Positions 4,600-28,592 of a DNA stretch of 64,000 nt are shown one piece after another. Where the stretch lies: contig NC_010794.1 in assembly GCF_000019665.1 (NCBI RefSeq), forward strand, positions 930,001 through 994,000, read 5' to 3'. The stretch is from Methylacidiphilum infernorum V4 (GTDB lineage: Bacteria; Verrucomicrobiota; Verrucomicrobiia; Methylacidiphilales; Methylacidiphilaceae). The translations under genes were made by a program, and so were the position numbers. Numbering within the stretch: the first letter of the stretch is position 1; each line of letters begins with the position of its first letter. The notes beneath the pieces are model-generated. The model saw only the letters and a list, made by a program, of their open reading frames with translations, had not been told where the DNA came from and did no database searches.

Positions 4600-4682
4600 T
4601 TGAGCAACGGGTAGCAATGAGGAGCCCGGAGGAGCTAAACTCTAGTATTGCAAATAGTGCGTAATGGTGTATTATGTAGGGC

Positions 4683-5315
4683 ATGGAAAGCACCATGAGC
4701 ACGGGCCGGGCGGCCAAGCTGCTGGGGGTCTCGGTCAAGACCATGCAGCGATGGGAGCGTGAAGGCCGACTAATTCCTGCGGTGCGGACCGACAGCAACC
4801 GAAGGCTTTACACCGAATCACAGCTTCGTGATTTTCTCGGCCTGCGCCATGCGGTGTCCGAGCCGACGCGGCTCATCGCGTACTGCCGCGTCTCCAGCGC
4901 CGCACAGAAGCCCGATCTTGTTAATCAGCGCAAGGTGCTGGAAGAGTTCGTGGTGGCAAAGGGACTGGCGAACGTCGAGTTCATCGAAGAGGTCGGTGGC
5001 GGACTGAACTTCAAGCGCAAGCGCTTTTTGGAACTCATGGACGCCATTGGACGGCGAGAGGTCAAAACCCTGATCCTTGCCCACCGCGACCGGCTCACCC
5101 GGTTTGGCTTCGAGTGGTTCGAGCATTTCGCCAGTAGGAATGGGTGCGAACTTCTCGTGCTCAACCAGGAGCGGCTGTCGCCCGAACAGGAAATGGTGCA
5201 GGACCTGATGACCATCGTGAATTGCTTCTCGTCCAGGCTCTACGGTTTGCGCAACTACCGAAAAAAGCTCAACGAAGCGCTGAAGCTGGACGCGACCAAC
5301 GCGACACAGGTGTGA
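4683..5315 (+). CDS. tnpA: IS607-type serine recombinase TnpA
   Basis: The transposase of IS607 elements cuts and joins DNA through a serine-recombinase domain. Residues 1-50 form a MerR-like helix-turn-helix (STGRAAKLLGVSVKTMQRWE, then the wing with RRLYTESQL). The catalytic domain follows, with the active-site serine in AYCRVSS and later LILAHRDRLTRFGFEW. The order (DNA-binding domain first, resolvase domain second) is the IS607 layout. At 210 residues it has the usual length and no defect is visible. The start may be ATG 4683 or ATG 4695. The tnpB reading frame begins five bases after the stop. Confidence 0.93.
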   Translation: MESTMSTGRAAKLLGVSVKTMQRWEREGRLIPAVRTDSNRRLYTESQLRDFLGLRHAVSEPTRLIAYCRVSSAAQKPDLVNQRKVLEEFVVAKGLANVEFIEEVGGGLNFKRKRFLELMDAIGRREVKTLILAHRDRLTRFGFEWFEHFASRNGCELLVLNQERLSPEQEMVQDLMTIVNCFSSRLYGLRNYRKKLNEALKLDATNATQV

Positions 5316-6416
5316 AGCCGTGCAACTGACCCACAAAATCGCCCTTCGTCCGACGCCCGAGCAGGCAGACTACTTTGCCCGCGCCTGCGTCACCGCGCGG
5401 CGCGTCTGGAACTGGGCGCTGGACGAGTGGAAGCGCCAGTATGCCGCCGGGTGTAAACCCAACGCGATGGCGCTCAAAAAGCAGTTGGGCGCCATCAAGT
5501 ACCGCGACCCGCAGTGGCTCGACGAGGACGGGCAGCCGTGGCTCAAGACCATCCATCGGGACGCCCACGCGCAGCCCTTTGCGTACCTGGGAAAAGCCTG
5601 GAAGCGCTACTTTGCCGACCGCAAAGCGGGCAAACCGGCGTTTGAACCGCAATTCAAGAAGAAAGGCCGCTGCCGCGACAGCTTCGCCTGAGCCAACGAC
5701 AAGTTTCGGGTCAGCGGTAAGACGATTTGCCTGCCCAAAGTGGGCGAAGTCGCCATGGCCGAGGCGCTGCGCTTTGAGGGCAAGATTCTCGGCACCACCG
5801 TCTCTCGCACGGCGGATCGCTGGTTTGTGGCGAGCCGTCGTCGAAGTGCCAGACCGCATATTCCATCGCCGCCGCTTAAGCCGCAAGATCGAAGCCGCCA
5901 AGGTTGCCGCCGGATTTGCTCCTCAAGCTCGTCTGCCCAAAGGCACCAAACTTCCCGTCTCCAACAACCGCAGGAAGTCTGCTGCGACATTGGCAAGGCT
6001 GCACGCCCGCGTTGCCAATGTCAGAGCGGATTTCACCCACAAGCTCACGACCCGGCTCTGCCGTAAAAACCAAGCGGTGGTGATCGAGGATTTGCGCGTC
6101 AAAGGCATGTTGGCAAACGACCGACTGGCCCGTGCCATCAACGACGTGGGCTTGGGGATGTTTCGCGCGCAGATCGAGTACAAGGCGAGGCGCTACGGCA
6201 CGCGGCTCATCATCGCCGATCGCTGGTATCCGAGCAGTCGCCTGTGTTCGGTTTGCGGGAGGAAGAACGAGGCGCTGACGCTCAAGGATCGGAGCTGGAC
6301 GTGTCCCGAGTGCGGCACGCGCCACGACCGCGACTTCAACGCGGCGCTCAACCTCAAACGGCTGGCAACCGCAACTGCCCTACCCGTGGCGAGTCCGTCT
6401 GGTAACAGCGGCGCTG

Positions 6417-6483
6417 CGGCAGAGATGGTCTCTGCCGTAGTCGGGAAAGTTACGCCTGTCAGAGACGATTCCGTTGAGGAATC
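6417..6483 (+). ncRNA. Two hairpins in the tnpB 3' region (candidate omega-RNA scaffold)
   Basis: The 3' part of tnpB holds two clean hairpins: CGGCAGAGA/TCTCTGCCG (6417-6425 with 6429-6437) and GATTCC/GGAATC (6467-6472 with 6478-6483, 5-base loop). In IS605/IS607 elements the guide (omega) RNA is transcribed from this region. Both hairpins recur in the relic at 28478-28543, the second with a compensatory change. The RNA itself is inferred, and its limits are unknown. Confidence 0.45.
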
Positions 6484-6500
6484 GGGGCAGGAAGAGAACA

Positions 6501-6524
6501 GTGCGCACCTTTGCGCACGTTTTT
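6501..6524 (+). terminator. Hairpin with T-run at the right end of the IS607 element
   Basis: GTGCGCA (6501-6507) pairs with TGCGCAC (6512-6518) across a CCTT loop and is followed by GTTTTT. This has the form of an intrinsic terminator at the end of the element, and would also stop transcripts before they run antisense into fdhD. In the relic near 28570 this hairpin is not preserved. Confidence 0.6.
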
Positions 6525-6536
6525 GATAGCAGAATC

Positions 6537-10211: not shown

Positions 10212-10243
10212 GGGTATTTCATTCCTGGGGGCCTTTAAAAAAA

Positions 10244-10652
10244 GGCACCGAGGGGAATAAGCCGGATTCTGTGATCCAACATAGGACCTGCCGCCATCTG
10301 TCTATCTCTTTATATTCAGAGATCCGCTTAGGCAAGCGGTGCGGCCTACCTGGGACTTCTCAAGGCTATTTGAGATGGGTAAGGCGACCCTTGTCCCCGC
10401 TTGGCCTTGCTCTGCGATGGGTTTTTCCTGCCATGAATGTTACCATTCATGCGGTGGGCTTTTACCCCGCCTTTTCACCCTTACTCAACAAAGATTGTTG
10501 AGCGGTATATTTTCTGTGACACTCTCCGTCTTGAAAGGCTTGCGCCTATTCAAGCCCACTGTTTCCAGTGGATCGCTGCCTTAAAGAGTCCGGACTTTCC
10601 TCTCGACTTCGATAAGAATAGGGAGTCGAGCGGCGGCATACCCCTCGGTGCG
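10244..10652 (-). ncRNA. rnpB: RNase P RNA (bacterial)
   Basis: The RNA that cleaves tRNA 5' leaders. On the minus strand the 5' side reads GCACCGAGGGG and pairs with CCCCTCGGTGC at the 3' end (helix P1, ends near 10652 and 10244). Just inside are the near-universal GAGGAAAGTCCGGACT on the 5' side and CAGAATCCGGCTTA on the 3' side. The length of about 410 nt fits the common bacterial class. A run of T follows the 3' end of the RNA on the minus strand, so P1 plus this run may act as terminator. The small open frames across this region are not genes. Confidence 0.95.
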
Positions 10653-27925: not shown

Positions 27926-28130
27926 TCAATAAGATCCCTTGGCCATTCGAGGGAGTTTTTCATTATCGCCTATTTCAAAGGATAAATCGTTGGCTTGGAT
28001 TGGAATGAGACTTTCCTGATCTGGGATAGAAGGGTGAACCAGCTCAATAACCCGTTTTTCTCTGTTAGCGGAAAAATTTTTGCAAGCAATAGCCAATCGC
28101 CATCCATGGGGATGGACAAGACTGTTTGTG
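27926..28130 (-). pseudogene. Truncated, frameshifted gene remnant left of the IS607 relic
   Basis: Two minus-strand frames look protein-like and seem to join by a frameshift: KLPQTVLSIPMDGDWLLLAK in one, then REKRVIELVHPSIPDQESLI and SFEIGDNEKLPRM in the other, ending at 27926. The upstream side meets the left end of the IS607 relic, so this may be the 3' end of a gene cut by the insertion. No family is recognised, and the evidence is only composition. Confidence 0.3.
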
Positions 28131-28592
28131 GAAGCTTGGCCCTGGCATTGCAAAACAGGCGCATTGATGTATTATTGCCTGATTGAAAGCACCGTGAGCA
28201 CAGCCAATGCGGCTGAGCCGCTTATCGGGCAAGAGCAGGCTATAGCGTTGGGAGTGCCGAAAACCGGCCGTTGCTGATCGCCGGTAACCAAGCAGCCTTC
28301 CTGAGCCCGTTCCGTGGTCGTGAAAACGACTCTCTCCCTCTCAAGGATTGGCGGTGTCTGAGCCCGGCATGGGGGGATACAGCAGGACCTTGATCCGGCT
28401 GCGGCGAAGATTTTCAAACGGCTGGCAACCCCAACTGCTCTATCCGTGGCAAGTACGGCCAGTAGCGGCGGCACTGCGGCAGGGAGAGTCTCTGCCCTAG
28501 CCGGGAAAGTCACACCTGCCTGGGATGATTGTATCAAGCAATCGGGACAGCAAAGAAAAAGCACCTACCTAATGCCACTGTTCTGATGGCGG
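28130..28592 (+). mobile_element. Decayed IS607-type relic (internally deleted)
   Basis: The left part (to about 28215) matches the left end and first codons of tnpA at 4660-4720: TTGCAAA, then GTATTATT, then GAAAGCACC(G/A)TGAGCAC. The right part (about 28270-28592) matches the tnpB 3' region from the zinc ribbon onward, including AAACGGCTGGCAACC and CGGGAAAGT. The middle, with most of tnpA and tnpB, is gone, and the remainder has stops and shifts. Shared end sequences mean it could once have moved with help from an intact TnpA, like a MITE. It shows no coding capacity. Confidence 0.75.
28478..28543 (+). ncRNA. Orphan copy of the tnpB 3' hairpins (candidate omega-RNA relic)
   Basis: GGCAGGGA/TCTCTGCC (28478-28485 with 28489-28496) and GATTGT/GCAATC (28527-28532 with 28538-28543) occupy the same places as the hairpins at 6417-6483. 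In the second stem a C-G pair has become G-C and another has become U-G, so pairing survives sequence change. This suggests selection on RNA (or DNA) structure, at least before decay. Transcription is not shown. Confidence 0.4.

Follow-up and report, generated by a model that had tools for sequence, protein, structure and literature searches.

A short IS607-type relic in Methylacidiphilum infernorum V4, lying within the 64,000-nucleotide stretch of DNA analysed here (the window), retains two stem-loops from the 3' region of a former tnpB gene, one of them with a compensatory base-pair change. Does the survival of these stems mean that the relic still specifies a structured RNA or folds as single-stranded DNA at transposition, or is it a trace of something its ancestors once possessed? 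A preliminary description favoured the first two possibilities. We find that the stems very probably belong to a TnpB guide-RNA scaffold located at the 3' end of an IS607 element, of which the relic is an old, decayed and non-autonomous copy. The features concerned are listed in Table 1.

Table 1. Features of the relic and of the near-full IS607 copy in the window
Feature	Positions	Strand	Basis
Near-full IS607 copy, 1902 bp (full length, 2030 bp, in L051)	4631..6532	+	
tnpA, open; MerR-type HTH and serine resolvase	4683..5315	+	Pfam PF00376, PF00239
tnpB, broken by an in-frame TGA and a 128-bp deletion	5320..6526	+	
Putative reRNA-type scaffold in the full copy, made up of hairpin 6399-6408, P2 6415-6439, P3 6455-6491, P4 6494-6524	6399..6532	+	40/40 pairs, fold z -6.0
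Relic, 463 bp: decayed non-autonomous derivative of IS607 (class C) with an internal deletion	28130..28592	+	Both ends align to IS607 copies; internal deletion same as in second copy 1752366-1752827
Promoter-like site at relic left end, TTGCAA-16-TATTAT, kept	28148..28175	+	Consensus scan only; hexamers and spacing equal to 4648-4675 in the full copy
Degraded putative reRNA (omegaRNA)-type scaffold of the relic	28459..28592	+	Held-out match to model R1, 59.1 bits, 30/40 pairs kept
Relic helix P2 (contains stem 28478-28496)	28475..28499	+	10/11 pairs
Relic helix P3; apical stem 28526-28544 has the G-C and G.U pairs	28515..28551	+	
Relic terminal helix P4, position only; inner stem lost	28554..28584	+	2/7 pairs

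The relic begins with GGAAGCTT at 28130 and stops with GATGGCGG at 28592, while the near-full copy, both ends intact, begins with GGAGCTAA at 4631 and finishes with GATAGCAG at 6532; the claim that the two share both ends holds to the base. In blast the shared ends emerge as two blocks, one at 79% over 145 nt (E 5e-30) and one at 68% over 114 nt (E 4e-06), which rules out chance resemblance. The second copy, hereafter the sibling, has the same internal deletion of about 1.58 kb between unrelated flanks, and together they constitute a 462-463-bp class. Genes flanking the relic are about 1.15 kb apart here but only 95-165 bp apart in G002, G003 and G004, three further Methylacidiphilum genomes, which therefore carry no relic-sized insert at this site; in the fourth other genome compared, the left flank was unmatched.

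The parent element encodes a serine recombinase TnpA with a MerR-like HTH and has its tnpB downstream of tnpA, as expected of IS607. The sole intact tnpB copy of the genome is located at 1425171-1426502; its product possesses OrfB, TNB and HTH domains (PF12323, PF01385, PF07282), including the RuvC and zinc-finger parts, and matches solved TnpB structures. GGAG is found at nearly all left junctions of the IS607 copies and CAG at the right, between flanks that vary.

Both stems lie in the relic where they had been placed, with the base changes reported. The stem at 28527-28543 reads GATTGT-ATCAA-GCAATC, and its counterpart at 6467-6483 reads GATTCC-GTTGA-GGAATC; the fifth pair is C6471-G6479 in the IS607 copy and G28531-C28539 in the relic, and the sixth is C-G in the former and T-G in the latter. 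The other stem, GGCAGGGA-GAG-TCTCTGCC at 28478-28496, differs from 6418-6436 by the change of a single A-T pair to G-T. The preliminary description was silent on the damage in the same region: directly below the latter stem a C-G pair has become C.C, the GNRA-type hairpin at 28459-28468 is closed by A.C, the outer stem at 28515-28551 has lost two of its six pairs, and the last hairpin at 28554-28584 is gone. It had also regarded the two copies as covariation evidence for a structured RNA. When substitutions were randomised over the 15 named pairs, all 15 were kept in 11% of the trials (P=0.11), so covariation between two copies is not significant by itself.

The structure is nevertheless real, as the larger alignments demonstrate. 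Alignment of the IS607 ends across the genus, which the preliminary description had proposed, yielded a five-helix scaffold in 16 copies with 81% of cells paired and 53 double-change cells against 21.8 after shuffling; the covariation score was 0.290 compared with 0.181 in shuffles (0/500). A covariance model (R1) built from the genus copies with the relic and its sibling left out assigns the relic 59.1 bits, as against 50.7 bits without structure, a gain of 8 bits from structure, with 30 of 40 pairs kept. In a structure-blind alignment of the tnpB 3' sequences of 15 relatives, 92.5% of cells pair and 23 pairs show double changes, compared with 7.9 in shuffles (0/500). On relatives, the structured model exceeds a sequence-only model by about 15-48 bits. 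The conserved structure lies at the 3' end of tnpB and reaches the right end of the element: it is a true RNA-type structure attached to IS607 tnpB. A scan of the region against Rfam gave no family match, even at E up to 1 for the full copy, and counts of G.U versus A.C do not favour either strand. A CTGC-GCAG pseudoknot between the scaffold start and the right end, proposed by eye, was rejected, its pairs being broken in many copies without compensation.

The scaffold is not confined to the genus. TnpB relatives 75-82% identical in other phyla bear it at their 3' ends, and when the intact TnpB of this genome was used to collect relatives, the held-out model matched the tnpB 3' end in the majority of the closer ones. 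The hosts include Tepidiphilus, Thermomonas, Rhodocyclales, Giesbergeria, Chloroflexus, Nitrospirae, Phycisphaerae, Roseiflexus and Bacillota, thus covering Proteobacteria, Chloroflexota, Nitrospirota, Phycisphaerae and Bacillota. Recent transfer of this IS607 element across phyla is suggested by TnpB relatives (L119-L127) that are 70-82% identical and come from Proteobacteria of hot springs and groundwater and from Chloroflexus and Nitrospirae. Thermomonas hydrothermalis has a further scaffold copy, accompanied by a fragment of the tnpB tail (L126:2567-2706), just upstream of a tnpB locus of the same family.

By analogy with known systems, the structure is best read as the scaffold of a reRNA (omegaRNA) belonging to an IS607 TnpB. 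The final ~175 nt of tnpB would serve also as the guide-RNA scaffold, which comprises in order a hairpin of GNRA type, helices P2 and P3, the latter with an outer stem and a variable apical stem, and the terminal hairpin P4; the flank adjoining P4 would supply the guide. Most likely the source transcript, either the tnpB mRNA or one from the retained promoter-like site at the left end, would be processed to scaffold plus flank-encoded guide, which would direct TnpB to the emptied donor site. We infer transcription, TnpB binding and use in cleavage from characterised IS607 TnpBs. The reRNA of the ISXfa1 TnpB (PMC10711439), likewise partnered by a serine-recombinase TnpA, is similar in that it is an RNA of about 150 nt with three stem-loops that starts in the 3' end of tnpB and extends past the right end; the likeness is one of description, and the ISXfa1 pseudoknot was not identified here. 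The RAGATH-18-type reRNA of the ISFba1 IS607 TnpB is also a structured scaffold at the tnpB 3' end, and the ISFba1 TAM, 5'-AGGAG, resembles the GGAG at the left junctions (PMC11061315); unlike RAGATH-18, our scaffold matches no curated Rfam covariance model, whether at the gathering threshold or with E relaxed to 1. The omegaRNA of IS200/IS605 elements such as ISDra2 also overlaps the tnpB 3' end and takes its guide from the flank, but there a Y1 transposase acts by a single-stranded mechanism. At 6501-6523 of the window, the terminal hairpin and the GTTTTT that follows it at the right end have the form of an intrinsic terminator, past which transcription of a guide RNA would need to continue.

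The genome contains many such right ends. The right-end probe found 26 places and the covariance model 27 scaffold copies; about 20 are non-autonomous derivatives, the relic among them. Twelve right-end copies hardly differ from one another. Among them are five full or near-full elements: L051, whose tnpA and tnpB are both intact, two interrupted by a TGA in tnpB, a frameshifted copy, and the one in the window. The other seven are 568-bp copies of one derivative, which arose by deletion across an 11-12-nt repeat and is found at unrelated flanks; copies of equal length differ by 1-10 bases, and the form has been amplified recently. Its scaffold is fully paired because the class is young. These copies (L054-L057 and L059-L061) have right ends at approximately 1432679, 1063203, 614631, 347455, 1838781, 575808 and 51080, and their open frame fuses the HTH domain of TnpA to the zinc-finger domain and tail of TnpB, possibly a regulator that binds the ends. 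The diverged copies consist of L013, which is older and near full size, and three short classes of ~250-262 bp, ~343-349 bp and 462-463 bp. Since junctions are shared at unlinked sites, the short derivatives were mobile after deletion, presumably by TnpA in trans. They resemble other non-autonomous IS derivatives and MITEs in their internal deletions, common junctions and kept ends. They differ from these in that IS607 is expected to have no terminal inverted repeats and an internal RNA scaffold is retained besides the ends.

How much of the structure in the relic reflects its own history? Relic and sibling group together (99/95), with the full copy next to them, and the apical stem of the sibling, CGATTGC-GCAA-GCAATCG, already has the G-C pair; hence the compensatory change is older than the decay of the relic itself. 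The other changes in this stem of the relic, relative to its sibling, are two C-to-T substitutions opposite G, which give G.U pairs and are of a common neutral kind. The sibling's counterpart of the stem at 28478-28496 is partly broken, and the terminal hairpin has been lost in both. The fold z is -0.73 for the relic, no better than shuffled sequence, -1.29 for the sibling and -6.0 for the full copy; its mean is -2.8 for autonomous copies and -1.0 for old non-autonomous ones (P=0.0002). Old non-autonomous copies, including the relic, retain 65-85% of pairs, and their mutual covariation is weak, with 10 pairs showing double changes compared with 7.6 after shuffling (68/500). Randomisation over the whole scaffold from the full copy gave P=0.0016 for the relic, whose history was clearly one of structural constraint, some of which may postdate the deletion. 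A sibling-to-relic randomisation was set aside as inflated by restoring changes on one branch. With a P4 inner stem of two pairs out of seven, the relic does not have a complete scaffold. Survival of its stems thus does not support function, contrary to what had been supposed; they are the remains of a once functional scaffold rather than evidence of present function, and the double change informs on the element lineage and not on the relic. The relic is most likely an old copy of a non-autonomous derivative that TnpA presumably mobilised in trans and that later decayed at both of its sites; the compensatory pair arose in the element lineage.

Could the stems have another origin altogether? 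In full copies the region codes up to a TGA at the right end, and the stems might be by-products of conserved TnpB coding sequence, or chance. This is extremely improbable: coding constraint does not produce base-pair covariation, sliding the partners by one column in the 15-sequence alignment reduces pairing from 92% to 35-36%, and three distant tnpBs (L128, L129 and L138) have the P3 apical stem swapped for a wholly different, perfect stem. The proximity of the hairpins to the element end would suit folded single-stranded DNA acting at transposition as in IS200/IS605, the second possibility raised by the preliminary description, but this is very improbable given that TnpA here is a MerR-HTH serine recombinase and that IS607 moves through double-stranded circles, with a serine recombinase acting on double-stranded DNA (PMC6188088; PMC10711439). 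Moreover, P2 and P3 sit ~40-115 nt inside the end, farther in than the reported TnpA sites at the right end of the IS607-family element IS1535, and the scaffold tracks tnpB across phyla.

A different matter is whether non-autonomous copies are working carriers of guide RNA, such that the intact TnpB uses their RNA in trans, cuts emptied donor sites and so retains the copies, the relic being a living member. All four deletion classes here retain at least ~172 nt of the right end, of which TnpA of IS1535 binds just about bp 10-28 (PMC6188088); the recently amplified class is fully paired, and the genome has one intact TnpB. Against this stand the low pairing, near-background folding and weak covariation of the old copies, the relic included, and a short element of G004 (L029/L077) whose deletion extends into the scaffold and removes its 5' part, which shows that scaffold retention is not universal. 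There are also few independent deletion events, and retention can therefore be chance. We consider this reading unlikely. It is likewise doubtful, if conceivable, that Methylacidiphilum hosts guide-RNA-carrying non-autonomous IS607 elements with both ends and a complete scaffold, moved by TnpA and kept by the intact TnpB in trans with a separate guide for each copy, of which the relic would be an extinct member. In the literature searched we found no description of scaffold-bearing non-autonomous IS607 elements, which may still exist.

The preferred reading, a TnpB guide-RNA scaffold that has decayed in the relic, adds a covariation-supported scaffold, unmatched in Rfam, that is common to thermophile-associated and other bacteria of several phyla. 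It also indicates that a compensatory change between two copies in a relic should not be taken as present function. This genome, in which a single intact TnpB coexists with seven short copies of recent origin, is suited to testing whether TnpB retains non-autonomous elements in trans. Elsewhere in the window, a bacterial RNase P class A RNA gene is located at 10243-10649 on the minus strand.
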